DNA of 64,000 bases from Apostichopus japonicus. Its lineage: Eukaryota > Echinodermata > Holothuroidea > Aspidochirotida > Stichopodidae. Location: the NCBI RefSeq assembly GCF_037975245.1, contig NC_092583.1, positions 16,888,764 through 16,952,763 on the forward strand. Direction: 5' to 3'. The first letter of the stretch is position 1; each line of letters opens with the position of its first letter. Below, piece after piece: positions 31,691-64,000 of the stretch. The position numbers were made by a program, and so were the translations under genes. The notes beneath the pieces are model-generated. The model did not search any database and was not told the origin of the DNA. It worked only from the letters and a program-made list of their open reading frames with translations.

Positions 31691-31700
31691 ATTATTATTA

Positions 31701-32457
31701 TTCAGAATTCTGAGACCTGGTTTATTCAGAATTCTGAGACCTGGTACATTCAGAATTCTGAGACCTGGTATACTCAAAATTCTGAGACCTGGTACAGTAC
31801 ATTCAGAATTCTGAGACCTGGTATATTCAGAATTCTGAGACCTGGTACATTCAGAATTCTGAGACCTGGTATATTCAGAATTCTGAGACCTGGTACATTC
31901 AGAATTCTGAGACCTGGTACATTCAGAATTCTGAGACCTGGTATACTCAGAATTCTGAGACCTGGTACAGTACATTCAGAATTCTGAGACCTGGTATATT
32001 CAGAATTCTGAGACCTGGTACATTCAGAATTCTGAGACCTGGTACATTCAGAATTCTGAGACCTGGTACATTCAGAATTCTGAGACCTGGTACATTCAGA
32101 ATTCTGAGACCTCGTTTATTCAGAATTCTGAGACCTCGTTTATTCAGAATTCTGAGACCTGGTACATTCAGAATTCTGAGACCTGGTATACTCAGAATTC
32201 TGAGACCTGGTACATTCAGAATTCTGAGACCTGGTATATTCAGAATTCTGAGACCTGGTACATTCAGAATTCTGAGACCTGGTATATTCAGAATTCTGAG
32301 ACCTGGTACATTCAGAATTCTGAGACCTGATATACTCAGAATTCTGAGACCTGGTACATTCAGAATTCTGAGACCTGGTACATTCAGAATTCTGAGACTT
32401 ATAAATTCTGAGACCTGGTATATTCAGAATTCTGAGACCTGGTATATTCAGAATTCT
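31701..32457. repeat. 24-bp satellite with EcoRI palindrome
   Basis: About 31 head-to-tail units of roughly 24 bp, consensus attcagaattctgagacctg plus gtac/gtat; a few units are 28 bp with an extra cagta. Each unit contains TCAGAATTCTGA, a 12-bp palindrome around GAATTC. Minus-strand frames reading TRSQNSEC are a by-product. Confidence 0.95.
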
Positions 32458-34233: not shown

Positions 34234-34353
34234 CTATTTCCTCATGGCTGATGCAAGTTGTTTTGTAGTTTGAGCAAATCCAGCTGCCTGGTTCCTCATC
34301 GAGCTAGTTGCGTCTTCTAATTCCCCGAGCTTCTCTCCTCGTTCGGCTGCTGC
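34234..34353 (-). CDS. SNARE-like gene, last exon (R-SNARE half motif, stop)
   Basis: 120 nt in phase 0 with stop at 34234-34236 and acceptor tttacag on the minus strand. Encodes 39 residues with the VAMP-type pattern ER(0)..KL.EL.D, then A...F.....K.L. It ends AMRK, not in the KYKDKKWYQF tail typical of tomosyn nor in a membrane anchor. Confidence 0.75.
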   Translation of the reverse strand, partial: AAAERGEKLGELEDATSSMRNQAAGFAQTTKQLASAMRK

Positions 34354-37300
34354 CTGTAAAACATTTGTGACAGAAACATGAATAAATTTAACGACACCAA
34401 GATCACAAGATGCAGCAGATCCTGGTAAGAATCATACAAAATGTCAAATATTCAAAGTTACTTAGCATCGACATTTACCTAGCATCAAATATGAGCTCAT
34501 CAAATTTTAAACCCTTTCTGCATTAAGCTATAGCCGTAAATAACAGGCCTTGTTCTAGCTGAACATACTCCGGTCGTTTTCTTGTCTGAGAAAATAACTT
34601 TGCATTAAGAAATCCTTACGAAAGGTGACTCAATATCCCTCTCTAACAAATATTCTTAAAGGATCAAAATGCTACCTTGTGGTTATACTTAACCATTTAT
34701 TCTTATATTATTCTCTTCATGGGATTTATCCTCACTGAGGCTTTGAATGGGACCACTCTTCATATTTGGTGGCAGTGCCATGGAGGGTTGGAAGTTTCAG
34801 GAACGTACATTTGAACAGGCTGTCAATTTTAAGTTTAAGTTACTTAAAAATTGGGTGGGGAAGTCAGGAAGCAGTGGAGCTTGGGTGTGTGTGGGGAGTA
34901 GAGAGGGGGGAGGGGGTATACAGGAATTTATGGGTGTACCTTTCTCGGATCCCTAAATCCTTGTGTCTGTTGCTTCAGTTTCTCCTTCTCCTCTCTTTCT
35001 TTTTCAATCTTCTCCATCCTCTCTGCCAAAATTAATAAATAAAATACAACATTAATAAAAAAAGGGAAAAATTTGAAACTGTCCTATAGTCTGACAAAAG
35101 ACTTGTCATTGTGCTGCTTAATATAAAAGTCATCTTTGACAGGACACGACATGCATAAAAACACTGAAACTCACCTCTCGCATATTTCGATTTCATTCTG
35201 GAGGATGAAACCCTTTGAAGTTTGCCCCTCTCAAAGTTGCCCGAAGAAGCTGTAAACATCAATAAAGATGGTGAAATATTTAAGAATAATTGGGATAAAG
35301 TAATTAAGATGACTTACATCATCTCTGCTAACAGGCTCTTCCTGACGTGCATAACATGGACGAACAAAGAAACAACACCATATTGAATGTTTTAATCTCT
35401 TAGAGATACTATAAAGGCTTTATACACCATTAAGGGACACTACAGAATCATAAGGCTAATCATATTCCCTATAAACGTTAAGGTAATTATGAGGCTAACC
35501 AAAAATTCTCTAATCTGATTCATCTTGCTCTGTGAATTCAAAGCACATTAAAAATTGGCAAAAAGGAAACAAGAAATCTCCAAAAAAAGCCATAGCAACC
35601 AAATCACCATTGATCTTACAGTTGAACCAAAAGCCAGGGTGAGACAACAAATAACAAGAAGACTTTTACAGGTTTGGACAGCAAATATTTAAATATTAAG
35701 ATAAGATCAGCCACCCAATGCCACAACATTATTACAGTAATTCTTCAGTCCCATCACATACTCTTTTAGTTATGTTCAACCATTACCATTACCATCTTTT
35801 TAATGCATGGAAACTTGCTGCCTAGCTAAGCGCCTCAAAAAGTTCAGTTAGTTCAACAGTTTGGGAAGAAACTGACTCAATTCGAGTGCTTTTTGCTTAA
35901 AATACAAAACCTTGCAACCTAACTCTACACAACCTGCATAATTTGGAAGAAAACAAAGAGTAAAAAATATACTGGTAGCATTGCCCTGATGTATTTCTCA
36001 TACATCTGTTATATTATCATGAAGATTCTTGTACTTGAAGATGCACAGGACTACACATTACGAAGACCATATGGGAAGATATCTACACTATAGCATACTA
36101 CCAGCAAAACTTTGATATCAAGGATGTGACAGCCAGTAATAGTATTAGCTTAGTATTGGCATTACATGCCACATGCAGTCTGTAGGTTTTCTGAAACACT
36201 GTACATATTATTTTACTTTAAAATAGCATCATACTATATCTCCTTGTCCAAAATGTGTTACATACAGTATGTGGGATACATATTTGTACAGCTATATACT
36301 GTATCTACAGTGTCCATTTTACATTTAACTGAAGTAATATATACCAACCAATCACAGTGATAACAGTAGGAATTGTTCAACACTGCAAGTACAGGTCAAC
36401 TGCTTCAAAGAAACTGGCTGTTTTTGCATTCTAACTTCTAAAGTTATCAAAATGGCTTCTCTAGCTATCACGTTAGCTTCTCTAGCTATTACCTAAGCTT
36501 CTCTCGCTACTAACTTAACTTCTCTTGCTATTAACTAAACTTCTCTAGCTAGTATTAACCAAGTTATTAAGTTAGCTTCTCTAGATATCACATCAGCTTC
36601 GTTTGCTATCAAGTTAACTCTCTAGTTATCAAGTTAGCTTCTCTAGCTATTCCTTAAGCTTCTTTAGCTACCACCTAATCTTCTTTAGCTATCACCTAAG
36701 CATTTCAAGCTATCATCTTAGAAGCTTCTCTAGCTATCAACTAAGCTTCCCTAACTATCAAACAAGCTATTATGAACCATGGTAGCTCTGTAATCCAAGC
36801 TTCTCCAGCTACCAACTAAGTTTCTCTGGCTATCCATCAAGATTAAATTAATTTTCTCTTGCTAGTTTGGTTGTACAAATGGCTTCAGGGATGATGTCTG
36901 AAACTATTTCCAAATATAATCAGCCTTAATTGTTGTACAACTGGAAGAGACTATACCTACAATAAATACTATACAAATACTGTACCTGTGCCTTACAGAA
37001 TCGACCCTCTGGTCAAAGGACTGGGGTGGAACTGAAACTGGAACATTTAACCCCACAGCAAGTTATAGTACTTATTTGAAGGTGACTACAGGTATGAAAT
37101 GTAAACAAATCTGTTATGAAGCTAATTCTTTCAAGCATTTCTTGATCTAGAGTAGGCCTACATCTGTTAGGATAGGCTGCATGTATGATACTGTACTTGC
37201 TATACTTTCCTAACATACAGTAGTATAACCCATTCACTAAATGCAATTGTACTTGCTTCCCTCTTCATGGAACAAATGCAAATTATAAACCTTTACATGT

Positions 37301-40300
37301 ATATCCCAACAATGACAATACAATATGGTCGTAACTTCTCCCTCTTACATAGTATTCTATCAGTGAGCTGTTTTAATTGTCATGTGGTTTATGAGTGACA
37401 ATTTCATTTCTCGATGAATATAATAAAAAATATATAATAAAACACTAAACTATGCAGTTGTCATAGTAAGAAAACAGGCATAAAATTATACTCATGCAGC
37501 AAATGGAGAGAGCCTTGCATTCACCATGTACCGGTGTATATAATCTTAGGGAATAATTTAGTCTTCAAATTTTGTGGAAAAAGCAGTGAGAGCTCTGAAA
37601 TTTTTCCCCTGAATGTTTCCTGTGTACAAAACCTGCTACATCTTTCATCTTTGCACTTGTTAAACGAATTTGTCCATTTTGTTATGCCATACTAGCTACT
37701 GTATACATTCATCCCTAACCAATAGTGATAAAGGCTTAGTTTTGACTGTACGATACCTGATAATTGTCCATCTTCACTGCACGCACTATCCATAATGTCT
37801 GTTCAAGTTTAATATCAGTCAATGTAGCATTTAGTCATCAGGAAGCACATTACACCATAAATAAGTTCTTTAAGAAGCAATGCTTGCAGTGTTCCCAGAG
37901 ACCATCACAACAATTTCAGAGAATCACAATATAACACCCTACCAATATAAATCACAATCATCCAAATAATGATAAACTGTAAATCCAAAACAGATGATGC
38001 AGTTTGCATTTCCTTTTACATTAAATCTCACATGCTAAATTGTATAAATTTATCCAATAATCTCTGTTTCCCCTGCAAACTAGGTTAGGCTTATAATTAC
38101 AGTACTCTTGTCTGCGTTGATCCGAGAGTTGTACTCACGAATAAAGCACGATGATCAAATTATGCAGAAGATCATCCGTGTGGAACAGAAGAAATTTAAA
38201 TCCAAATTAACTGCTAAAGATTTGCCTCAACAGTATATCAAATCTATATTTTTCACGTCTCAAATAAAGCCATGCTGTACAGCAGTGTACAGTCCTTGGT
38301 TATTCTACTGTTTGTGGGCAGTGTCAAAACAAGTTCACTCTAGCATATCCACATTATGCACAGGAAATATTTTGGATTAGATTATTAATTTCAGCAGCCA
38401 AGCTGTCATAGCAACAGTGGAAAATTATCATAAAATTTATGGCATTGTCTCAGAGAGGATGAGTTCTCTACAAGAGAGGAAACCATGATTTAGTATGGTT
38501 ATGGTAATGACTAATCATCGTTAGTAAAACTAGACAATTAACAGACAGCACAAGTCATGAGCTAAAACTGAACAAACTTTATACGGGATGCAATCGAGTC
38601 ACAGTGTCCAGACGTATGTAGCTTGTCTCAATGCAAATTAGAAGATTTCTTGGTCAATATGTCCAATGTGTAGGCATACAGCTATCCAGCTTATTAAGTG
38701 AACAACAAACTTGGTAGATGAGAAAAATTTTCAAAGTTTGGCATTCCAACTTTCACAGAAAAAATTAGCACCTGGGAATAACAAAATAAACACAAGAAAT
38801 CACTCTTAGCTTCCCTTTACTTTTTGTAACAATTTGTAAGTTACATCTACACATGAGAGACTAGTGTACAACTGTATGTGAGTAGGACTTCCTCAGGATT
38901 AATCTAGAATGAAAAGTAAGTATCACAATAGATCCCTTGAGAAAAAGAATTTACAAATAGTTTGCTTTCTGGTAAATTCCTAATATTTTACGAAGTTATC
39001 CTCCATGATGATCAAAACACAGTGATACTGTCAGCTGTAATTACAGTACTTCAAATTGTTATCATGACCAACAATTTGCCACAAAAATATGGATCAAAAT
39101 TCCTATAACAACAGCAAAGTTTATGCAACAGTCACTTTTATAATGTATAGCAAAACACCATGTACGGTAATATGAGCAGCAAATAAATGACTTTCATCGC
39201 CACCTACACAGAGATGTGAATAGGAAACCTCATTACGATTTTGAAAACTAATTAATCTTCATGCATGGCTATAAGTAGTGTTTCCCTCAGAAGCCAAGCC
39301 ATAACTTTAAGGCCTCCCACTAAACTGAATCCAGCCTAATTACAACTTTTCTCTTTGTTTTTTTTGTCTTCTCACTCTACAAAATACTACGCATAATCAA
39401 CCATTCTATCCTGAAGGTTTTCACCTCCCATTCAAGTAATTACTGCTTCATTTTATTTTTTAAGCACCTTTGTTTTTACTGATGAATTCTTCATGCTGCA
39501 ATGAAGTGAGCTACTGAAGTATGAAATCCTAGAATAAGGGTTGACCTTGTGAGTGTTCAGTGCTCTCTGAAATATTAATTAACGATGGTACTATTAAAGG
39601 CTCAAAATCATTATTAGAATGTCAATATATCAGAGGGCACGAAAAAAATATCAAAGACAACAAAAATATCAAAGAAAAAAAAAATGATGAAATAAAAGCA
39701 GGGATGTAAAATGGTTTATTATCGACTAAAAATTATTTTCTGACAAAAAGAAAACGTTTACATTGGACTTCAAAGGAAATTGGCCTTTCGTAGATGTTCC
39801 ATATCATTGAGAAAGTCCTTCACAGCATGTGAGTTCAGTAGCTGTTTATCAATTTCAAGTCTTAGGTTTCACTGTAAGTATTAAGAAAAGTTATGCTAAG
39901 ATAATAATGCTTGACCCATCTGTACAAGCACTTTTCAATATGAATTTACATGAACTCAGAAGTTCAAACTGCATTCTAGTCTTGGTGATGTAAATTTTGT
40001 AATATAATAAGGCAAATATTGACTGTTTTCTCATCATAAAGGAGGACTTGAAGCAGAATTTTTGAATATGTGGTACAGTAGTCCTAGAATAATATAAATT
40101 ATCAGAACTAGTAATGATACTCAGCTTAATGATATTAGCTACAGTAAATCTCTTGAAGGTTAAGTGTTTTTTTCATAAATTTTATTTATCCTTGATAAAG
40201 TTACAATGTATGATAACAAGTATGTTAGTTGAGGCAGGGATGTACATTATAAGTACTATTCTGACAGACACCATAAAAGTCTTATGTTTTTCCCTTTTAG

Positions 40301-43300
40301 TTTTGTGTTGCACTTTGGGAACTAAGCTGATGGTCTGTGTGTTTAACTGTACTTGTACTTCATACACAATTTCCATTGATCAATGTCAGATGTTTACAGG
40401 GTCACTACAGTATTAATTATGTACTACAGTTACAGTATTGTTACAGGAGTGTTAGCTCAGTGGTTAACGCCGGTGCCTTCCAATCATAACAGGCGTGTAT
40501 CCAGGGGGGGGGCGTTGGGGGCGCGCGCCCCCCGGGTAAGAAAAAGAGGAGAGAAAAAAAAGAGAAGAAAAAAGGAAAAAAGAGGGGAAAAAAGAGGAGG
40601 AGGAGAGGAAGGGAAAAGAAAAAGAAGAAAGAGAGAAAAAGGAGAAAAGGAGGGAGTAAAAGAAAAACGCGAAGACACCGGGGAGAGAAAGAGGAACAGT
40701 GACATCATTACAGCGCTGAAGGGTAGCCAGTGATGGATCAATGATTTCGTAAAAGTGTGACTCACCCTACCCCTTACACCGACAACTCCATTTTTTGACG
40801 TTTCCATTTTCCTCTCTCACTAATGATCTATATATGTACTATATATGGTCTATCATAATGCGTGTGTAGAATTGTGCTATGAAACCAACTGTGGCTGGTC
40901 TCGAACTCGACCGTGTCGTCGGGGAACATGACGCATTTTGGGATGGGGGCGACCGCCCGCCCCCCCCATTCAGCATTTTTTTAAATGATATCGCTAAGTA
41001 ATTTCAAAATAGAAAGTGCTTAGAGGCAACTTACAAGGCCTGGGAAGTGTCATTTCCAGCGATCTGGGAGACATTTTCGGCCAAAATTTGCTTGTACGCT
41101 TCGCGCTAACAAATGGTCCTGGGTAGTGCCATTTCCAGCGATCTGGGAGACATTTTCGGCCAAAATTTGCTCGTACGCTTCGCGCTAACAAATGGTCCTG
41201 GGTAGTGCCATTTCCAGCGATCTGGGAGGCATTTTCGGCCAAAATTTGCTTGTACGCTTCGCGCCAACCTATGGTGGCGCTACGCTTAGATAATTTGCCT
41301 ACAGGCTTCGCCCCTCCCTTGGCAAATTCCTCGCTACGCGCCTGTTCGAATTTGTAACGCAAACAGCAGATATCACATCATATCAGTGAGCATGAAAATG
41401 GCATTCCAGGATGAAAAGCCTCAAAACTGTCCGACTTGCCTGAAAAAATAACCAAAAATTTTCGCGCGCGTTCAACGTCTTCATGTCAATATCATATAAG
41501 CAAGCATCGGTTATTACATCCCATGCCATCATGTACCGTACGGTCCATTCAAATTGCGCAGTATTTCGCGGGATGCTAATGTAAACAACGACATGTCTCA
41601 TGTAGCTATATAAAAAGCATGGAGGTCCAATTATGTCAAAACTCTCTTTTACATTAGTAATGGCGAATTAGGGGCTGCACCCCCGCCGCACAGTGGCGGA
41701 GCGTCCATACGGTCGGGGGGGTTGGATGCCCCCCCCTGACGGACTCAAATGGACTGCTGGCGCCTTTTTCAGCTCTTTACCACTTTTTACTTATTCTAGA
41801 TTATTGACTTTTTTATTGCGCTCTCATCTACTTATTGACATTTCTCACATTCTGTTGGTGTAATTTGGCGATGACACCTATTTATTCTTCGTTTATCCGC
41901 AAATTAGCCAGGCCCGGAAAGGGTCATTTCCGGCGATCTAGGGAGTATCTTTATTCAAAAATTTTCTGTACGCTACGCGCCAACCAGTGGTGGCGCTCCG
42001 CTTAGATAGTGTCGAAAGCGCTCCTACAAACCATTCTCGCCACTCCTGACCAATACCCCTAGCTCCACCACTGCCGCCGCGCCTCCTACGCCTATGTGTG
42101 TAGTGTTCGGTTGAAGGAAATATCTGCTATTTTTTCATTTCCTTCAACCAAGTTTTATAATAGCCGTTATAAGAGGTTTTAATGTTTGTACACCAATAAA
42201 TTAACTGTGTCGGAATTTTCGAAAATTTCTGACCAACATTCTGCATCACACTTCCCTCTACTCGTGCAATTTTCACCGGTCTGTTAGGGGTTGAAGGAAG
42301 TTTTTCTATATTGGTTGTCCATAGATGAAATTTTGTACAACATTATGGGTATGTTTTGAAGTGAGTTTATTCACGAGAAATGTGAATTTTCAAATTCTGA
42401 ACAAATATGGGGCTTAAAACCTTGAAAAGTGGGGCTGACGGGTATTGTGGGCCGCGACATAGAATCACCTACAAAAGCAAAGACCCACAGGAGATGCCAT
42501 CAGGTCGAACATGATGTGTGCCGGGTTGACAAACTTCAAAAAGGTTATGGATGGAAAAAAAAAACTATTAGGAAATACCTGGTTCTCAGGCAAAAAGTGT
42601 ACATCTGGTTGGTCATTTCAAGCCCGAGAAGTGCCGTTTCCGGTGATCTGGGGGGGTTTCAAAACAAGAAATTTTCTTGTACGCTGCGCGCCAACCGATG
42701 GTGGCGCTTCGCTTAGATAGTAATTCGCGCCCCCCGGGTTTGAAAATCCTGTATACGCGCCTGCATAAGGTCCCCCTACTATAGCTTCACCCCTTAGTTA
42801 CTGTACATACAGTGAAAAGAACATAAGTACTGTAGCAGGTACATGTGTTCATTGACTATCATCCCAAAGGCAAAGGTTATTTATTTGTCAAAAGAACCAA
42901 AATGTTAGAGACATTTGAAAGGTGGTAGGTTTACCAGGTATGTCATTCCTGGAGGGAATGTGGAGGGTTTGGTGCTTATTACAGCAGTGTCACCAAAATG
43001 TATAACTTAACTGCAATGTAAAGCATATTAAGCATTAGGCATTAAGAAAAAACCAATCTGACCAGTTGATCACAACATAATTAACAGACTTTAGATTTCA
43101 CTGTTGTAGATAATGCATACAGTACTTATCAAAACTAAAGGCATACTGACAGATATCAGATATAGTAATTTCTACAGGGTTAAGTTGAGAGGTCACCTTA
43201 TTGTATTATGTTTTACTTCTGTATCAAACAGAAATGTTACACAGTCAGGACTAAGGAATATACCTTAATCAAATTGGTGCCTCCCATTCCAACCCACTAC

Positions 43301-45333
43301 CTCCCCTCTCCATGGATCGTCAAGACTGTATATCAGAAGAAACTTATAATTACACAACTTTGTAGTACAAGCTTCATTTGTCTCCATTAAATGTCCCAAC
43401 ATATCACCAGACAATCACCTCCCTCCTCTCCTCTCTCCTCCCATCCCTCCTCCACTCCCTCCCCGCCCCCACCCACATGGACAGGTGCCTGATCAAAGGC
43501 AATACAAACTGAACATTGAATATCTTAACAAGCGACCAGCATGAAGTTGCAATAACTAAAGCTACACAATTCAAGTATCTTTCTTTGTATACTGTAACAT
43601 AAAACCTTTTCGAGTTTAAATAAATTATCTTGTATTAAATGTCACAGAAATATAATACTTCTAAGATCTATAAGCATGTCAGTCTTTGCAACAAACAGGA
43701 AACAGTGTAGAATATAAAGTGTACTGTGATATGACATGCTCACTCTGTTCAAAGCTGTTGTCAATGAAATTTGATGACCACATTGTGAAACACACACGCA
43801 CAAATATAAACAGTCAAATTTATTAATAACAGGAAGTAAATATATATTGGTCAGAACTATTTTTCTTAGACTGAATAAAAAAAAATTCTCCAGTGCAATA
43901 AACATGTGTGAATTTCCACTATAAAGATCTGTGTAAAGAAATGTTTTGTGAGAATCAAAACCTGCTCAGATAAGTGTTCTCTTTCTTATAATTTTTAAAT
44001 ATTCAGAGGGCGTGGCAGGCAAACAGAGAGGAGGGACAAATGTGTGTGTCAATTATTTTACAGATTCCTCGTTTTGTCCTTTCGGCAGACAGACAGGTCA
44101 CTGTCATTACAAAATTTTAACATCCATTAATCATTAATGGTATAATAATAGAAAAGCAGTTAATATAAAGTAGCATACTGTAGATATAATGTACTGTAGG
44201 CTATGTGCTTGTACTGCACAAAAGTACATTAAAGGGAGTGAAGACTCCCGCACAAAGAAAATGTCGAATGAGGTGTAACAGAAGTGTTAGACACCACCTT
44301 GATCACCATCGATCCCAGAAAATACACACACAGCTTGCTATCGTCGGTAATTAGACACTAGTGTACAGTCAATAAATACAGCTATGGTAATTTCCCACAA
44401 CACAGTGTACATAGCAGCAATGGACATCTCAGGTCCAGATAAAAAAGGTATCACGTTTCATTACTGTCTGCATTTTGTAGCGACAAGAAAAAACTTCACT
44501 TGCAAGCAACGGAAAGTTAACTTTTTCAGAGCGGGGCACGCGGTTTGGGGCGAGTCTTCAATGCCTTTAAATATGGTAAAAGTGGGTGGTAGATAAACCT
44601 GGACAGGGTTGTAACAGGTCATATAATTTTATATGCTTGTCACTATGATGTCATGATGCTTGGGGTAACATATCTTAAACTCTCTACATTATGCTCTGAT
44701 CCTCTTACCTATTTTTTCTTTGGCATGCTTCTCCGCGTATTTTTGATGATGGTGTTCTTCTCCATGCTTGATCAGAGCTTTCTTCACCTTTCCAGCGGTT
44801 TTTGTGACTTTTGATGTCACACCGAAACTGATGTGTTTCTTCTTCTTTTTCTTCTTGGCATCCCTCTCTTGCTTTTGGTTGATTTCATTCGACACTAACG
44901 CAGAGTTTTCACTTTCAGATATTGTCTCATAACTACGGGTATCATCAGAGAGGTTAGAGGTATGGGGTAGAGGGGCAAATGTCACATGACTCTTCTCCTC
45001 TATTTTTCGATTACCATCACCGGAAGTTTCTTCATCTTTCTTTGTATTTGTCTCTGGTGTCTTCTCCACAACTACTTCTACAGTCGTCTGAAGGTTTGAC
45101 TTTGGAATATCTGCCTGACTTTGTGGTAATGGCTTGTCTAATTGCCGTGGTCTCACAGAGCCACTTTTTACTAATCTCTCAGTTTCTTTCTGAGGGACCC
45201 ATGTCTCTGATGTTTCTGTTGTTATGGTGCCGTAACCTCTCTGGCTATGGATAGGACTGTTTGCTACAGGGCTTCCATCACTGCACTTGTCTGATCCATC
45301 ACTGGGATTCAAACATGAACAACAATTACCCAT
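34234..45333 (-). CDS. N-terminally acylated, TM-less R-SNARE-like protein (4 coding exons)
   Basis: Spliced CDS on the minus strand: 45333-44709, 35249-35175, 35022-34940, 34353-34234. Junction phases 1, 1, 0 all agree and give about 300 aa. The start at 45331-45333 has A at -3 and G at +4 and yields MGNCCSCLNPSDGS. Gly2 fits N-myristoylation; Cys4, Cys5 and Cys7 are candidate palmitoylation sites. Residues 20-170 are polar and disordered. Next come a Lys run (DAKKKKKKKHISFG) and a His/Lys-rich helix. A charged coiled coil follows (RMEKIEKEREEKEKLKQQ), and the last 39 residues are AAAERGEKLGELEDATSSMR and NQAAGFAQTTKQLASAMRK. This end aligns with the C-terminal half of VAMP2 and amisyn, including the zero-layer Arg in ER..KL.EL. 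No membrane segment follows. Likely role: a lipid-anchored or regulatory R-SNARE in vesicle fusion; this is inference. Extra exons within the 9.5-kb intron cannot be excluded. Confidence 0.72.
34940..35022 (-). CDS. SNARE-like gene, exon 3 (coiled coil)
   Basis: 83 nt, acceptor ttttggcag and donor gtacac. Only one frame is open: RMEKIEKEREEKEKLKQQ, then TQGFRDPRK. Phase 1 in, phase 0 out. Confidence 0.7.
35175..35249 (-). CDS. SNARE-like gene, exon 2 (basic linker)
   Basis: 75 nt, acceptor tttacag and donor gtgagt. Only one frame is open: SSGNFERGKLQRVSSSRMK, then SKYAR. Phase 1 on both sides, matching its neighbours. Confidence 0.68.
36425..36850. repeat. Degenerate ~22-bp repeat (cttctctagctatca)
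   Basis: Roughly 18 imperfect units of gcttctctagctatcaagtta, with spacing drifting between 18 and 30 bp. Clearly tandem in origin, now diverged. Confidence 0.75.
40446..40489 (+). mobile_element. tRNA-like SINE head, interrupted
   Basis: ggagtgttagctcagtgg through ccaatcataa matches the head of the SINE at 25446. It stops where the hAT-type composite begins; cataaggtccc, the next expected SINE bases, reappears at 42764-42774 on the far side of the insertion. Confidence 0.6.
41039..41275. repeat. Three 79-bp tandem units
   Basis: Units start at 41039, 41118 and 41197, each beginning cctggg(a/t)agtg and containing catttccagcgatctggg and tacgcttcgcgc. They differ by only a few bases. They are an amplified internal segment of the MITE family seen at 30341-30553. 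Confidence 0.9.
41691..42073. mobile_element. Nested hAT-type MITE, 383 bp
   Basis: Inverted ends CAGTGGCGGAGC (left) and CAGTGGTGGAGC (right, inverted). Flanks ccgccgca (41683-41690) and ccgccgcg (42074-42081) agree at 7 of 8 bases, the 8-bp duplication expected of hAT insertion. It lies inside the larger composite and carries a diverged copy of the shared catttccggcgatct block. Confidence 0.75.
44229..44570 (+). mobile_element. piggyBac-like MITE, copy 2
   Basis: 342 bp with TTAA at 44229-44232 and 44567-44570. Ends AGGGAGTGAAGACTC and, inverted, AGGCATTGAAGACTC. Same family as 27404-27766, opposite orientation. Confidence 0.75.
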
Positions 45334-45367
45334 ATTAGACACCTTACAGAGAGATACGACCATACAT
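44709..45367 (-). CDS. SNARE-like gene, first coding exon (MGNCCSC start)
   Basis: Acceptor atcaacag before 45367 and donor gtaaga after 44709. A 34-nt leader holds a tiny upstream ATG frame and a second in-frame ATG in weak context. The ATG at 45331-45333 is preferred for its Kozak match and acylation signal. It encodes 208 residues, including the VTKTAGKVKKALIKHG basic segment, and leaves in phase 1. At least one 5' non-coding exon must lie upstream. Confidence 0.75.
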
Positions 45368-45948
45368 CTGTTGATACAAGGCTGGTACCATCTTAAAAGT
45401 CAGTGCTGCAAAAAAAATAGAAATGATACTGTATGTAACCTAGCTGAAGATATGTATACCGTAAACCAGTTCAAGGTAGGCTAATTACAAATGATGCAAA
45501 GAGAATATTCAATATTCCCCAAACATATTCATGTATTATTGTCAGAATATTTCCGCTCAAATTAGCTTAATGCTAAGGGTTTCTCATTACTAAAACATAT
45601 TTGAAGCGTTGATGGCCGACACACTCAATCACCCACCAAGAAAATGAATATATTGCATTTCTATAACATATTTAACAAGGGAGTCTAAGAAAATGGGACC
45701 CAAGTCCAAGACTTTGACAGAAGTCAACATCACTGGTTAGTCCTCATAACTCATAATAATAAAAGGGTGATACTCTCATAAAATCATTGCTTTACTTGAT
45801 TCCTCATCCAGAAAAGTGCATATGGTATAGAGTCAGATAGCTTGAATTCAGCTAAGACAGTATTGCACTGGTTAACTTGTTAATGCTATGAACTTTGTGG
45901 TGTTGGGTGAGATCAATTGTGAGATGTCTTGTAATAACATTCTATTAT

Positions 45949-46880
45949 GTGTAAAAATAAGTTGGCCTCACATTTCGATCCTAGCAGGATCTTCTTCAGA
46001 GGCTAAATGACAAGTAACAGTAACAGAAGGGACAAAAACACGCACAGAATACAGACAGGTTAATGAGCATGGTGAACACAAAGAGATAGATGTAAGGAGA
46101 TTAGTAGACAAGGGATGGAGAGAAGAAAGTAACAGGGGAAGAGGAGAGGTAGGAGATAAACAGTGGAGGGACAAAGCGAGGATTAAGGGAAAGGATTAGG
46201 GAATAAACTGGAGAGGACAAAGATAGAAAGGTGTGAAGAAAAAAGGGTGGAAGAGAGCTGTGTGAAGAGGAGAGATGGGGGGGGGTGGGGGAACAAGGGG
46301 AGCTGGAGGGGGGGACAGAAGAAAAGTTAGTCATGTCCTTCCTGAATGTTGAGCCCATGAGGTTGAATGGTGCGAAGGCGTTGCATCTACAGCCCCTCTC
46401 TCTGCTGATTCGTACTAGGTCAGGGCGGCTACCTAAGGATTCAATCCCCTGTAGGGACATGTCGTTAATGGTATGGTTGGGAAGGTTAAAATGTTCTCCA
46501 ACTGGGGTATCAGTCTTCATGGTGTTGACTGTGGATCTGTGACCATAGATTCGCTTCTTGAGGGTGGTTTTGGTTTCGCCAACATATTGGATGCCACAAA
46601 CTCTACAAGAGATCAGATAGATGACATTAGTGGTTGTGCAAGTGATGAGACCTTTAGTCTTGTGTTTGAGTTGCATGCTGTGGCTGGTGATGGAATTAGA
46701 TTCAACAATGTGGTGGCTGCAGATGACGCATCTCGAAGTACGATCACATTTGAAAGTATCATGCTGAATGGGTGTAGGGTTAGAAGTTAGAGGTGGAACA
46801 GCAGCACGCACAAGAAGGTCTCGTAGGTTGTGGACGTCTGTAGGCGATGGTGGGTTTTTCAGGGACGGCTTGCTTGTTTT
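45949..46880 (-). mobile_element. Penelope-like element, GIY-YIG domain and 3' end
   Basis: Minus-strand frame from about 46850 to about 46370. It contains a Cys/His linker (CDRTSRCVICSHH), then NVIYLISCRVCGIQYVGETK with TLKKRIYGHRS, the GIY-YIG endonuclease core of Penelope-like retroelements. PVGEHFNLPNH and RISRERGCRC follow. The reverse transcriptase part is absent, so the copy is 5' truncated. The 3' non-coding part has G-runs and a terminal stem GATCCTGCTAGGATC. A matching 3' fragment lies at 11388-11802. Confidence 0.85.
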
Positions 46881-47545
46881 TACTTTAACATTCTATTATA
46901 TAAGAATGAACCATATCTTTGGGCACACCTGTAACTTAATATATTGGCGAGCTTATATATTCCGACTTTAGATGCACATGTGGTTAGACCAAGCCGAAGT
47001 TATTTGTACATGAATCACGAGGTTAATCAATCCTGACGCCCTTGTTTGTGCTATAAAAAATATGCCTAAAAAGTTAGGCTGCTGTAGCCTAGCCCACAAA
47101 CTTGAATCTAAAACTTTCAATTAAGTTACCGAATTGTTTTGGAAATCACTTTGTTAGCGAAACTTTCTTCTAACTTAGCCTGTCTGATTTAAATATAGCC
47201 TAGGCCATGTCTATGTAGTGAAAATGAAACGGAAAATGCTCACTGTGACTGTCATATTTTCACGAATCGCTGGGAAGTGGCATTTGAATGTTGTGCAATT
47301 GCACTGAGTATGTATTGTGCGAAATATAATAACTTGGTCTACGATGATGACACTGTTGTATGTTTACTCAAGTCAGCTGACCGTACAAAATATATGTTTG
47401 GGATTTACGCCCTCTAATTCTGAAGTAGCTAATTTCCCCGAACGATTAGGCGCGATTCTGCCCGAAGTTTTCATTTCTAGTGGACAACGAGAGGTATCAA
47501 ATAAATAATGAAGCATCTGTGATGTAAGCCATTTGGGAGACGTTT
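46881..47545. other. Non-coding stretch upstream of the SNARE-like gene
   Basis: AT-rich, no gene recognised. It may contain the 5' non-coding exon and promoter of the minus-strand SNARE-like gene, but no clear signal was identified. Confidence 0.35.
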
Positions 47546-50162: not shown

Positions 50163-50434
50163 TTAGGCACAAATTGTCTTCTCCTTAAATGTTCGACAAT
50201 TCATTTGCCTGGACTGTTGGTACCCTGCTCTCGTCTCCAACGAAACTGCAGAAGAGAGGGCGGCATAACATATTTGAGTTTCGTTGTCGTACAAAATCGC
50301 ATTACAATGCGCCTGTTGACAGAGTGCGCAGCATTTCGTTAAACTGTGTATATGGTGCATCGACGTCATCTTCGAATCATTTGGAATGTCTTCACCCATC
50401 GTCGCGAATCCATAGAATTCACCAACGTCTATAC
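50163..50434 (-). CDS. Lectin gene, last exon (PAN/apple-like Cys-rich)
   Basis: 272 nt, acceptor cctcaacag, stop at 50163-50165. Starts IDVGEFYGFATMGEDIPNDS and continues LTKCCALCQQAHCNAILYDN, then MNCRTFKEKTICA. The Cys order matches the terminal exon of the neighbouring paralogue at 63609-63874. Confidence 0.75.
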
Positions 50435-53400
50435 CTGTTGAGGTTAATGTTTGAGAATCAAAACTATAAAGCCAATTAATGTTGTAACTGTTAGTAAACG
50501 AGATGATGGTAAATAGTTACATATAAATGTAGTCACGGAGGAGGAACCGTCCCAATGAACATAAGTCGAACTAATATAAAAAAAATATAAGAAAAATGTA
50601 AACTGTTCAATTGATATTTCTGATCACACTTCGATGTCTTTTAGTGTCCGTTTGTGTGTCTGGTGGAGGGCCAGGGCCGGGAGGGGGGGGGTCATACACA
50701 CTGTCATATATAACTTTTGTTAAATGACCACTAACCACTCCACAGAAGTGCACCTTTCGTATTGCTCTATTAACGTGTATGATTGTGGGTGACCGAAGAG
50801 GCATATGGATACATAATATTAGAATTGAAATTAAACCTCTTTCTTTAATAGACATAACACATAGAGGACCCCCCCCACCCCCTAGCCCCAGCTCTCTCCT
50901 GTCAACCCCCTACGCAGAAAGGTCCAACAATCTATCTATTAAGATATGGAATCATCAATAATATACCTGGAACTTGTGTGCTTTCATCAAATGTTCTAAT
51001 TTCAGTGGTTTCGTGGTTTCTTGTGGTAACTGAAAATAATAAATAAATTGTTTGGTAATATAGCAGATTTGTTTATGACACTCACTTAGGTTTGCTTATT
51101 TTGTTCTTCGGGCCATTTGATCTACAAAAAGGTAAATTAGAATTTACTTGTATAATATGTAAATAAATATTATATAAATAAAAATGAAACGTTTTTGAAA
51201 TAGCGCGATATGAAAATATAATCTGGTGTATACAAGGTTAGAAAATAAATTTTTGAAGCCGACACCAGAAGTACATGCCAGTATAGATATCACACTTCAT
51301 ACATTAACTTGTCGCATACCTAGCAATATAACGAAGACAAGATTGTTGCTCGTCAATATATACCTTTCCGTTGTTGTTTGGTAATTGAATGTGCCAGGAT
51401 ACATCCATGTGGCTCTGAAGTGATTTATAGATTAGGTCGAACTTAACTCATCAATGAAGCAGACGAGTAGTGATGGCGTACTCGTATTCTAGCATATTTA
51501 CATGTACTTGTTACCCGCCCTGGACCCCCACTCCCACAACTCCCCTACAACCCCCCCCCCCCACCAGGGCTTTGAAATCAAGTCCATAGAAGTAAAATTT
51601 CTCTCTCAAATGTATTTTTGCGCTTTAAAGCCGCTACGAGAGAAAATGGAATATTTGTATGTATGTATGTATATTTGTATGTATGTATGTAGGAATATTT
51701 ATAAAAAAAATGAGCCCATGGACCCCCACAGGGCCCTGGACCTACACTATGGCACCAGAACCCCCAATGGCACCTGGACCCCAACTAGGGCCCTGAGACT
51801 TTTACTGGAAATTACCTTAATTCTATTAAAACTAATTACTTGGATATGTTGTACTCTTTCTAGCCGTAGTGACTAGAGTTGATCCGGTGCGAAATTCTGT
51901 AGTGACTGAGTTGAAAAAGAAAATATCAAGTTGATGCTTATTATATATACGCCTATTTCAATAGCTGAGCGGGACGATACAACATTATTCTGTTAGATTA
52001 AATTCAGAGAAAACTAATCTCCCTAAAGGTACATCAGAAAACTATTTTGATATGAAATTATTCTCCAAAATGCGTCCGCATTAACGCCGTCTTTGGTTCT
52101 GGAAATTTGAAATGACAACATCGTTTCATGAAGGTAAGTTATTAGAATGAATATTACCTGGCAACGTACTCTCACCATCTGTAGTGTACTGGGTAGTTTC
52201 GCGAACTGTTGTAGTGGCTGGGGAAAAGGAGTATATCCTTGGTTAAAGTGAAACGGAATTAAAACTTTATTCCATTTGCTAATTAGATTCTACATCATTG
52301 CCATGTAATCATAAAGTATCATAAAGGTAAGTTATAAGAATGAATATTACCTGGCAACGTACTCTCACCATCTGTAGTGTACTGGGTAGTTTCGCGAACT
52401 GTTGTAGTGGCTGGGAAAATGAGTATATACTTGGTTAAAGTGAAACGGATTTAAAGCTTTATTCCATTTGCTAATTAGATTCAACATCATGGTGACGTCA
52501 GCCGAAGGACACACGAGGAAGAGGACTTGGGAATGGGTGAGGGGGGGGGGGGGCATATAGTGTCTAAGGAGAAGGCCGAGTATAAGCAAACTCAGGTTGA
52601 AGCAACCCTTGGAATCCTCGCAAGAGTTGTTTTAACTAATTGAAGAAGATGGTCACGTCCCTGTACTGAATTTGACAAATAGTAAACTGAAGACTCAAGC
52701 CGTTCATTCAGTGATTTTAATTTGTTGTTGTTGTTGAATGTTTTGAACAATGCTAAAAAGATCAGTGTTAAGTACCTCACTTCTTGTCATTGTACCGCAA
52801 TTGATGACTCCGTTAACTTATACAGTAAATTCATTCCAAGCCTATTGTATTATTGAGCACACGGGTTTACGTTTTCAACTGTCTTACCCGACCCACCACT
52901 ACATGTGATAGCTGATTGGTTGTCCCGTCATGGCATTTCCAAGTTTCCATATTATAACCAAAAAAATAATCCAAAACTTTTACGATTGCCCGACCTTTCC
53001 GTCAATATCAAATTTAATACAAAACAATTCTAAAATGCTTGAAGTCCCACATCATCTGTATTTTGATATTTGTTCTTCAACATGAAAGCATACAAGACAC
53101 GGTGATATCTGAAAGGATGACAAAACGATCCTCCTTTTTAAGTCATTTTAGGAATTCTTCTAACAGATGAGTAGCCTTTTTGGAAGGATGTACACTATTC
53201 TAATTGTTTCATGATACCTGTAAATGCTATTTATGTATCCATCCTAGCCCCCAAACATGCAGCTAACTTTTAAATCAATGCTCTGTATTCATGTTGAATC
53301 GAATCTTGATGAAAAATTCGAAAATATGTTCACTAACCGAATCATTCTCATACGTTGACAATTTCAGCACAGTATAGGACTCTTTAACTTTAGAGAAAGG

Positions 53401-56400: not shown

Positions 56401-58611
56401 AAATGAGGTGAAATCATGCTAGGTGCTAATGTAGGAATCTTCCGAATTAGAGTTTATTTCTTGTCAATATCTTAACAATTTGTTTCCATTCGAAATAGCT
56501 TTGAGTTTGGCCCACAGAAATTCATTAAAAGTCAGGGGCGTAACCAGGATTCGCAAAGTTGTATGCACGACTATCTGAGCGGAGCGCCACCATCGGTTGG
56601 CGCGGAGCGTACAAGAAAATTTTTGGTTTTACAAACCCCTCAGATGGCTGGAAACGGCCCTTCCCGAGTGTTCATTCTGGTTCCCTGGCCTCTTGCTAAC
56701 TTGAGACACCTCAATGTTTTATGTAGAAAAAGGGCACATTTTTAACCTGAGGAAAAGTGGGGGGGCACGTGACCCCTGTGCCCCCCGGTTCCGCCGCCCT
56801 TGAGTTAGGAGGGGAAGGGGTGGAGGGGGGGGGGTTGTGATTCTCGACCTTCCCAGGCTTGGTCAAGATATTGAAGATAATTCACAGAATACAAAGCGAA
56901 TGTAACGAGCCATAAGCTACGGTATATGCATACGGTAAATACAGAAAAGATAATACTGTATAAATATTCCAATCATTTAAAAAAATATAAATAATGCAAG
57001 TATAGTTCCTTTTCGTTTACCTTCGGTCTCGCAAATGTACCCCAAGTTGTCTCTACAGTCATGGTCATGCCAGGTGTTTGAGGGAACACCATATCCAGGC
57101 GGTGCAATTTTATAACATCCTGAATCATCACCAAAGGGTTCGGTCCAATCAACAAAGTTAAAATACTGCACCGTTGATCCATCATCCCACGTCATTATGT
57201 CAAACTCTAATCCGTTTAATCCGATCCAATAGAAAGTATATGCAACATAAATCCGAGCGAGATATTCTACCTCCTCCGGTGATTCGATAAAGACGAGATG
57301 CGAAGATGAAGACTCACACTTTAGTCTAGCGTCTGATATATCGAGTCGATCACTCTGGTTGGAGATTACTTGATAGCAGGAGCAATTCGACTGATGAGGA
57401 AAGTCGATGGGGCAAACTAACGAAAGATGGAGAGAGAGAGGTGGAGAGAGAGATGGAGGGAGATGGAAGAATTAGAAAGGATTCTTTGAAAGACACTGAC
57501 TGAACTAAATTATATCAAAGTATAAGATCATATATTAACAATATATTCCTTTATTCCAAAGCGCATATAGCATAACACTATAAAAAGGCTCAATAATGAC
57601 TCAAAAATTGATGCTAAAATGACCAAAAAAGGTTTTAAAAACACGTAAATTACATGTTGGCATATCTTGAAAAGTTTCAATATACCTATTTTATGGTTTT
57701 CATAATTTTGTGGCAGTCTTCTTTTCACTATAGTTTTCATGGTAACATGAATTGAATGAGGCAGTCTTCTCTTACTCACAAACTAAAATGTGCTCTTTGG
57801 GAAAAATGTGCGTAAACTTAAGACAATTTTGTTCTAGAAAACATGAAGTCCGAGTCATTCGACTATAGCCACTACAATATTGGTAAACAAGTGCCCAAAA
57901 GGTTTTATAGCTATTATATAGCAAGCTATCCAATATGATGCATGGTGGTAAGCTGACAGAACATTGCATCCGCAAATTCGTGCAACTGGTACCGTATACA
58001 TTAGTTTTAATAGCGTAAGGCTGCGTTGCTATGGTTACTACGCATCTTCGTTCCATGAATGAAATCGCGCATGCACAAACTGATATGGCAGATGTGAGAG
58101 GTTCAGAGGTAAATCGCCTATACATTTAGTGCTCGGAACAATAAATAAATCTCTTTTAAATAAAGAGACAATTTCGAAATATTGACATTCATAATGTTTT
58201 CGATGTTTAGGCCTATATATACTTTATTATAACAGTTAGGCATGCACAATTTAAGGGTATATCAGATGGACAGTGCATTTCCATGAAACAATTGAGTATC
58301 CTTTTCTTGCATATATCCTTCACAAGCATGCATGAACATTTCCTATCGACATTTGAGAGCGTACGTGCAGATAATTGGGGATTGTTATTAGGTCATAGGT
58401 GGGACATTTCTTATCCGATGACCTTTGACATCATATCGCTACTTCACATTGTAACCTGTTCTTGTTTGTACAATGCCCTAACATCTTATTTCATATTTAC
58501 TAGGTTGATTAGGCTATGTACTGTGACCATTCATGAAGAAGGCTTACCTGAATGAACGATATATATTGAAGAAACAAATAAGAGGGCTGAAAATCCGGAA
58601 ATTGGGTCCAT
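50163..58611 (-). CDS. Secreted C-type lectin with Thr-rich linkers and PAN/apple-like C-terminus (7 exons)
   Basis: Spliced CDS on the minus strand: 58611-58548, 57416-57021, 55873-55820, 52410-52351, 52217-52158, 51029-50967, 50434-50163. All introns are phase 1 and every junction stays open, giving about 322 aa. Residues 1-21 (MDPISGFSALLFVSSIYIVHS) form a signal peptide. A C-type lectin domain covers about 22-153, with six Cys from CSCY to YICE, plus YWIGLN, WDDGS and WHDHDC. The EPN/QPD sugar-specificity triplet reads EPF, so classical calcium-dependent mannose or galactose binding is doubtful. Four short Thr-rich exons form a mucin-like stalk. The last 90 residues contain six Cys in a PAN/apple-like order (C..C....C). 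No membrane anchor follows, so it should be secreted. Role in extracellular recognition is inferred. Confidence 0.78.
50967..51029 (-). CDS. Lectin gene, linker exon 4
   Basis: 63 nt, phase 1 both sides, acceptor attttcag, donor gtatat. Encodes TTRNHETTEIRTFDESTQVP, a diverged relative of linkers 2 and 3 (ETT, DEST/GEST, P at the end). Confidence 0.62.
52158..52217 (-). CDS. Lectin gene, linker exon 3 (duplicate of linker 2)
   Basis: 60 nt, phase 1 both sides, acceptor ttcccag (ttttccccag), donor gtaata. Same 19 residues as linker exon 2, produced by a 193-bp tandem duplication. Confidence 0.62.
52351..52410 (-). CDS. Lectin gene, linker exon 2
   Basis: 60 nt, phase 1 both sides, acceptor ttcccag, donor gtaata. 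Encodes TTTVRETTQYTTDGESTLP. Identical in protein to the next exon. Confidence 0.62.
52494..54485 (-). other. Lectin-gene intron, unannotated part
   Basis: No repeat or exon recognised apart from a G-run at 52540-52553. A + strand frame near 54200-54350 (FFPFHPFSGLPGNLYNCNYD) has no splice or homology support. Confidence 0.45.
54492..54945. repeat. 21-bp tandem repeat with ATGCAT
   Basis: About 20 units of accatgcatggccttagact with variants (ataata, aggcatgg, tgtatgg). Contains the palindromes ATGCAT and GGCC. Located in the lectin-gene intron. Confidence 0.92.
54946..55819 (-). other. Lectin-gene intron
   Basis: AT-rich; no exon recognised. Confidence 0.5.
55820..55873 (-). CDS. Lectin gene, linker exon 1
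   Basis: 54 nt, phase 1 both sides, acceptor cttacag and donor gtaagt. Encodes PACSYVPTTVKAEPTTQ. The single Cys is unusual among the linkers. Confidence 0.6.
56147..56802. mobile_element. hAT-type non-autonomous element, 656 bp, perfect 8-bp target duplication
   Basis: Ends CAAGGGTGGCGGAAGC and, inverted, CAAGGGCGGCGGAACC. Flanked by identical AGTTAGGA at 56139-56146 and 56803-56810. G and C runs lie just inside the ends. An internal CAGGGGCGTAACCAGGATT at 56533 looks like the end of a second hAT family member, and 56575-56660 matches, inverted, the gccaaccgatggtggcgct block of 42690. No transposase. Confidence 0.8.
57021..57416 (-). CDS. Lectin gene, C-type lectin domain exon
   Basis: 396 nt, phase 1 both sides, one exon for the whole domain. 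The acceptor at 57417-57475 is preceded by a long CT-rich tract; donor gtaaac. Reads CPIDFPHQSNCSCYQVIS, later LVFIESPEEVEYLARIYVA, FYWIGLNGLEFDIMTWDDGS, WTEPFGDDSGCYKI, WHDHDCRDNLGYICE. Residue order and spacing are typical of long-form CTLDs. Confidence 0.88.
57421..57475. repeat. GA-rich tract before the lectin exon
   Basis: agagagagaggtggagaga-type sequence; on the minus strand it is an extended polypyrimidine tract of about 50 nt ending at the acceptor cgttag of the lectin exon. Confidence 0.7.
58548..58611 (-). CDS. Lectin gene, signal-peptide exon
   Basis: 64 nt from ATG to donor gtaagcc. A strong acceptor (cttcttctttgtatcag) lies immediately before the ATG, so a 5' non-coding exon lies upstream. 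Encodes 21 residues with a hydrophobic core (FSALLFVSSIYIV), then one base completing Val with the lectin exon. Confidence 0.75.
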
Positions 58612-63608: not shown

Positions 63609-63874
63609 TTAAGTACATATCACATTACTTATTATTCTTGTACACCTCATCAATTTTGAATACATTCTTCCTTTATATTCCATTGGAGGTACCGCCATGG
63701 CGAGTTCACAGACCTTCTCTTCTTCATTGTACATGAATCCATGGCACGACAATGGATGACATTGTAACCCACATCGACCAATTGTAGTCACTGTACTACG
63801 TGACATAAGAACACTGTTGCTAGGGATAAAGATACCAGAAGCAGGCACTCCGAAAAATACTCCAAGGTCAAGTC
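63609..63874 (-). CDS. Last exon of a tandem paralogue (PAN/apple-like), gene continues beyond window
   Basis: 266 nt, acceptor ttttgtacag, phase 1 entry, stop at 63609-63611. Reads LDLGVFFGVPASGIFIPS, then IGRCGLQCHPLSCHGFMYN, EEEKVCELA and LMRCTRIISNVICT. It aligns end to end with the last exon of the lectin gene, with the same start (G-[IL]-D-[VL]-G-x-F-[YF]-G), the same six Cys and the same ending ICA/ICT. Its upstream exons, presumably including a lectin domain, lie past the right edge. Confidence 0.72.
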
Positions 63875-64000
63875 CTGTACAAAAAAATCGAAAGGTTAGA
63901 ATAGGACAGGACGGTAAAGGGAACAAAACAGGACACAAAGACGACACAACATAAACCAAGGGTAGCAGTTGTACTGTAAAATAATCAGACATGAACATTG

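Follow-up and report, generated by a model that had tools for sequence, protein, structure and literature searches.

YKT6 is an R-SNARE that carries a lipid site in place of the transmembrane anchor. Tomosyn and amisyn are wholly without such an anchor and regulate the access of VAMP to the Q-SNARE acceptor complex, as set out in passages of PMC6143360. In the case of amisyn, an excerpt of PMC10670990 describes a protein of 210 residues with an N-terminal pleckstrin homology (PH) domain, oddly placed there at residues 151–210. According to the same excerpt, amisyn competes with synaptobrevin-2, and the PH domain serves its transient association with the plasma membrane. A C-terminal synaptobrevin peptide, as described in sections of PMC7031292, displaces surplus syntaxin and leaves an acceptor complex that readily binds synaptobrevin. 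In one liposome arrangement this peptide gives efficient lipid mixing and very inefficient content mixing, and in the other arrangement far less lipid and content mixing occurs (the same sections of PMC7031292).

The locus described here lies on the minus strand of a 64,000-nucleotide stretch of Apostichopus japonicus DNA, the whole of which is referred to as the window. The gene model, with its predicted joins, appears real and intact-looking, and would code for a protein that resembles the regulatory R-SNAREs but begins with an unusual N-terminus.

Gene model and surrounding sequence

Four minus-strand exons join in phase to give 300 codons and a stop (903 nt). The coding part of exon 1 (44709–45333) ends in phase 1 at TAG/GTAAGA. 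Exon 2 (35175–35249; 75 nt, phase 1 to 1) encodes SSGNFERGKLQRVSSSRMKSKYAR, exon 3 (34940–35022; 83 nt, phase 1 to 0) encodes the charged, helix-prone RMEKIEKEREEKEKLKQQTQGFRDPRK, and the terminal exon 4 (34234–34353) carries the R-SNARE half-motif, layers -1 to +8, followed by the short tail ASAMRK and the stop. A sequence-only reading had proposed these four in-phase exons, and all of them were recovered in place with GT...AG introns and an open frame throughout; both protein ends, MGNCCSC at the start and ERGEKLGELEDATSSMRNQAAGFAQTTKQLASAMRK before the stop, were likewise read exactly. In each of exons 2, 3 and 4, one of the three frames is open and is the frame demanded by the junctions, the frames chaining exactly. 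Furthermore, the GC content is 0.42–0.50 in the exons compared with a lower 0.30–0.38 in introns 1–3.

Splice sites were ranked with a simple consensus matrix. Among the 714 GT sites between 33800 and 45800, the donors of exon 2 (GAG/GTGAGT) and exon 1 rank first and third, and that of exon 3 (GTACAC), at 66th, is weak. On the acceptor side, exons 2, 3 and 4 rank 24th, 20th and 52nd among 790 sites. A candidate scan of intron 1 together with exon 2 gave, at the loosest thresholds, 125 splice-site pairs compatible in length and phase. Five of them are open, with exon 2 as the top-scoring in-phase open candidate after exon 1 (10.5 vs 4.2 for the runner-up). Since exon 2 outscores the other four, it is the one to be expected from the phase in which exon 1 ends. 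At moderate thresholds, none of 37 site pairs within intron 1 gives a further in-phase open cassette exon, and the loosest thresholds yield four weak ones among 123 pairs (scores 0.4–4.2). A 24-nt microexon-like stretch with its donor at 35317 (score 3.8) was excluded from the main product; by eye, it holds a stop in the phase of exon 1.

The chain could also have been assembled from two merged genes, with exon 1 derived from an unrelated acylated disordered protein and exons 2–4, or exon 4, representing the 3' end of another R-SNARE gene, for example amisyn, with its remaining exons overlooked. The length of intron 1 (9,459 bp, repeat-bearing), the weak donor of exon 3 and the closeness of exon 4 to amisyn are compatible with such a merger. 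However, the single open frames of exons 2, 3 and 4 are compatible with the phase in which exon 1 ends, no rival in-phase open candidate scores as high as exon 2, and no second significant match to the R-SNARE profile occurs among the window ORFs. In addition, none of eight scanned intron-1 ORFs reaches a Pfam cut-off, the scan covering 8 of the 20 ORFs of at least 70 codons (seven of ten on the minus strand and one of ten on the plus strand). A merger is considered unlikely.

The repeats of intron 1 comprise three 79-bp tandem copies at 41039–41275, of which the second and third are 96% and 92% like the first, a diverged copy at 41913–41991 and a related 51-bp piece at 42669–42719. These repeats are perhaps of mobile-element origin.

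Exon 1 is located within a stop-to-stop ORF of 236 codons, which is longer than the longest ORF of every one of 60 dinucleotide shuffles of the window (mean 145 codons, maximum 216). Two window ORFs exceed it. In the 263-codon ORF at 46104–46892 (minus strand), Pfam finds a GIY-YIG nuclease domain at 23 bits (cut-off 22.6; E 9.7e-5), and this ORF is perhaps a fragment of a Penelope-like retroelement. The 239-codon ORF at 11883–12599 (plus strand), without a Pfam match, resembles the end of a LINE reverse transcriptase. Exon-like ORFs on the plus strand at about 5200–13115, such as ALRDRPRFRKGDINGDIRPSGRRE at 12705–13115, resemble a LARP4-type RNA-binding protein; Pfam gave no match for the two pieces of this stretch that were scanned, nor for 414–725. 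Elsewhere in the window, a tandem array at 31700–32457 consists of about 31 copies of a 24-bp unit (consensus ATTCAGAATTCTGAGACCTGGTAC) and is open in several frames. A C-type lectin domain exon is situated at 56980–57471 on the minus strand (Pfam Lectin_C, E 6.8e-15), and PAN-like exons, below the Pfam cut-off, are found on the same strand at 50166–50516 and 63612–63998.

The C-terminal R-SNARE half-motif

Judged by its profile scores, the C-terminus is an R-SNARE motif, more than a coiled coil. The last 39 residues (exon 4) match Pfam Synaptobrevin (PF00957), the only Pfam family listed for this exon, with 28.6 bits (E 1.3e-6; cut-off 26.4), and the alignment covers profile positions 27–61 of 89; the whole 300-residue protein, aligned at 26–61, scores 26.4 bits, exactly the curated cut-off. 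A local R-SNARE profile was built from approximate reference sequences of ten R-SNAREs. With this profile, the exon 4 ORF is the only significant match among 3,459 window ORFs of at least 12 residues (E 1.3e-10, next 1.9), scoring 36.8 bits alone and 32.0 bits within the whole protein. Among solved structures, exon 4 is best matched by VAMP4 (2nps, E 8.7e-4), with yeast synaptobrevin homolog 1 next at E about 0.03, alongside tomosyn (1urq) at 0.031. When exons 2–4 (92 residues) are used, VAMP4 drops to E 0.0049, with the ribosomal protein eL21 in second place at 0.02. Taken alone, these structure matches are modest.

Alternatively, the C-terminus could be a coiled coil of the generic amphipathic kind, in an acylated protein of the scaffold or cytoskeleton that merely looks like an R-SNARE and takes no part in SNARE complexes. 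Exon 3 resembles a generic charged helix, a fitting N-terminal half is missing from the motif, and Synaptobrevin is touched by 10 of 10 exon 4 shuffles in which the zipper residues were held fixed, at 11.7–18.5 bits. Nevertheless, none of these ten layer-fixed shuffles reaches the Pfam cut-off that exon 4 exceeds. In the local profile, all 5,000 layer-fixed shuffles remain below exon 4 (maximum 32.8 bits), and free shuffles attain at most 13.1 bits (4,928 scored of 5,000 made). In addition, the ERG zero layer and the register up to +8 are exact, and the generic coiled coil is regarded as quite unlikely. The earlier proposal of a VAMP-like C-terminal half-motif, for which a mere coiled coil had been named as the danger, thus stands, with scores above the Pfam cut-off and above the free and layer-fixed shuffles.

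From layer 0 to layer +8 the residues are R L L T M A F T L, with the zero-layer arginine in ERG, an exact register and suitable residues at all positions. Layers -7 to -1 read E E L Q F P A and do not form the mostly hydrophobic series of an N-terminal half; exon 3, which would carry layers -7 to -2, fits poorly. Since layer -2 is a proline and layers -7, -6 and -4 carry charged or polar side chains, only the membrane-proximal half of the zipper appears to be present. The reference tomosyn sequence is likewise matched by Pfam only at 28–61, so that the profile alone is no proof of a half-motif; since the N-terminal half of tomosyn is also unmatched, a poorly fitting half does not by itself exclude membership of the R-SNAREs. 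The tomosyn motif reportedly forms core complexes.

From +3 to +6 the protein has T, M, A and F, as do tomosyn (1urq) and the reference amisyn; in the remaining eight reference R-SNAREs, +4 is occupied by L. As far as layers 0 to +8 indicate, the motif is of the anchorless regulatory type represented by amisyn and tomosyn. In the same Pfam library, the halves of the reference amisyn and tomosyn score 29.2 and 24.5 bits, the latter under the cut-off of 26.4, so the window protein scores like the halves of real regulatory R-SNAREs. Compared over 32 residues with the ten reference R-SNAREs, the motif is nearest to amisyn (16 identities), followed by VAMP4 (14), tomosyn (12) and VAMP5 (12), and in so short a stretch this nearness is a lean and not a phylogeny. 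The sequence-only reading had announced a new class of R-SNARE with a topology inverted relative to VAMPs. The first part goes too far, as anchorless regulatory R-SNAREs are already known and the motif is nearest to one of them, amisyn. The second does not follow: it is the helix that fixes direction within the SNARE bundle, and the more than 200 residues between the acyl group and the motif, probably disordered for the most part, would impose no orientation, so that inverted topology is not implied.

The stop follows directly after the R-SNARE motif, and no transmembrane segment was found in the 300 residues, in which the highest 19-residue Kyte-Doolittle mean is 0.22. Exon 4 contains no GT dinucleotide, and the stop therefore cannot be bypassed by any canonical donor inside this exon. 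The absence of an anchor, claimed earlier, is borne out by all three observations, and the C-terminal transmembrane anchor expected of a fusogenic VAMP is missing. A decaying VAMP-type gene or pseudogene, once a fusogenic R-SNARE that lost its N-terminal motif half and transmembrane exon, would account for both missing parts and for the weak exon 3 donor, but it is highly improbable, given that all frames are intact, exon GC exceeds intron GC, and the residues of layers 0 to +8 are well preserved, with types that match tomosyn and amisyn rather than the eight other reference R-SNAREs.

The predicted acyl N-terminus and the linker

By eye, MGNCCSC presents an MGxxxS start with nearby cysteines and conforms to the rule for acylation, provided that translation starts at 45333. 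MGNCCS fits the N-myristoylation rule at Gly2, with Cys4, Cys5 and Cys7 suitably placed for S-acylation (palmitoylation). The dual acylation put forward earlier thus finds a suitable N-terminal sequence, the modification itself being a prediction.

The probable 3' end of a 5' leader exon (45363–45405, minus strand) comprises an acceptor, a uORF and an alternative ATG. The acceptor, with an exon start at 45405, is strong (rank 2 of 790) and suggests an additional 5' exon or leader upstream of exon 1. Read by eye from the leader sequence, the uORF (MVPALYQQMYGRISL, then a stop) extends beyond 45363, and an upstream ATG at 45363 is in frame with exon 1, giving MVVSLCKVSN-MGNCC... If this ATG were used, Gly2 would be buried and myristoylation abolished. 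Initiation at MGNCC could be reduced, or prevented, by the upstream in-frame ATG and the uORF.

The linker of exon 1 is Ser/Thr-rich, with a KKKKKKK patch and a basic amphipathic stretch at about residues 160–190. Within it, VTSKVTKTAGKVKKALIK has a net charge of +6 and the top amphipathic moment of the protein (0.46; next 0.45). The KKKKKKK patch and VTSKVTKTAGKVKKALIK could provide extra electrostatic membrane binding. Pfam lists no domain above its cut-off in exon 1, with one match in the linker that falls far short of the family's cut-off (Omp_AT, E 0.05). A single-sequence AlphaFold model of exon 1, of low confidence, contains one helix (140–163) and no other listed element. Its mean pLDDT of 53.6 fits disorder without proving it, and the long polybasic linker is probably largely disordered. 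No PH-type domain was matched by Pfam in the 300 residues, for which the single modelled helix is a weak test. Pfam likewise found no WD40 repeats in the protein, nor in the eight of the 20 longer intron-1 ORFs that were scanned.

Proposed role and comparison with known systems

A regulatory, non-fusogenic R-SNARE-like protein of the amisyn and tomosyn kind, tethered by acyl groups and a polybasic stretch and acting as a half-zipper placeholder that VAMP displaces, is given about an even chance. Tethered to the membrane, it would probably compete with VAMP for Q-SNARE acceptor complexes or hold the place of VAMP on them. From the exons, frame, motif, zero-layer arginine and missing anchor read in the DNA, we infer acylation, Q-SNARE binding and a clamp or placeholder effect. 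The N-terminal myristate and palmitate, together with the polybasic stretch, would hold the protein on the membrane, replacing the PH domain of amisyn or the WD40 body of tomosyn. The half-zipper (layers -1/0 to +8) may then pack into the membrane-proximal half of the Q-SNARE acceptor complex, and the N-terminal half of the acceptor would be left free for VAMP docking. To complete the zipper, VAMP would have to displace the half-zipper, by which the acceptor could be kept ready and the final zippering delayed. Such a protein would be the natural, tethered counterpart of the synaptobrevin 49–93 peptide, and the clamp or hemifusion-type role put forward earlier is a reasonable hypothesis.

A wider proposal, which is doubtful, is a third regulatory R-SNARE architecture of animals, in which a dual-acylated half-R-SNARE primes acceptors and arrests fusion at the docking or hemifusion stage until VAMP displaces it. 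If true, cells would use the same trick as the laboratory peptide in a genome-encoded and lipid-tethered form. Acyl groups with a polybasic stretch would then be, besides the PH domain and WD40 repeats, a third N-terminal solution for placing an anchorless R-SNARE at the membrane.

Relatives were sought in prokaryote and viral contigs, where 580 and 207 pattern matches were obtained and none was confirmed. For an animal gene this null result is expected and is no evidence of absence in animals. In the open-licence literature, neither a study of echinoderm amisyn or tomosyn nor a myristoylated R-SNARE was found, an outcome sensitive to the wording of the query in both cases. The myristoylated proteins in the available passages of PMC7830690 are viral fusogens. 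STXBP6 is tabulated, in a part of PMC11203038, among human orthologues at the base of the tunicate–vertebrate clade, and an extract of PMC2374702 notes no insect similarity for amisyn. If amisyn is confined to the tunicate–vertebrate clade, an amisyn-type motif outside this clade would be of interest.

Amisyn (STXBP6) shares with the window protein an anchorless C-terminal R-SNARE motif that ends a small protein, with 16 of 32 identities to the human reference sequence, and an N-terminal part that associates with the membrane, as is predicted here. In place of the N-terminal PH domain of amisyn, the window protein has a polybasic linker of 200 residues behind an end predicted to be dually acylated, and the reference amisyn matches the Synaptobrevin profile at 10–60, compared with only 26–61 in the window protein. 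Tomosyn (STXBP5) also possesses a C-terminal R-SNARE motif without an anchor, the same T/M/A/F at +3 to +6 and the same half matched by Pfam. Unlike the window protein, it contains WD40 repeats in its N-terminal domain, according to the abstract of PMC3195084. VAMP/synaptobrevin and VAMP4, the best solved-structure match, have in common with it the zero-layer arginine and the C-terminal zipper. The VAMPs differ in their full zipper and in their C-terminal transmembrane anchor, which is described in part of PMC6143360; the window protein fits neither. YKT6 resembles it in having a lipid site, presumed here, rather than a transmembrane anchor. However, the same part of PMC6143360 assigns YKT6 a longin domain and a CAAX motif, and the presumed lipid site of the window protein is N-terminal. 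The reference YKT6 sequence, furthermore, carries a full motif (profile 3–58) and not a half-motif. The synaptobrevin 49–93 peptide, which makes an acceptor complex in vitro (a section of PMC7031292), is laboratory-made and untethered, unlike the window protein. Compared with all of these systems, the apparent novelty looks to be the combination of a predicted acyl N-terminus, a long polybasic linker and a membrane-proximal half-zipper.
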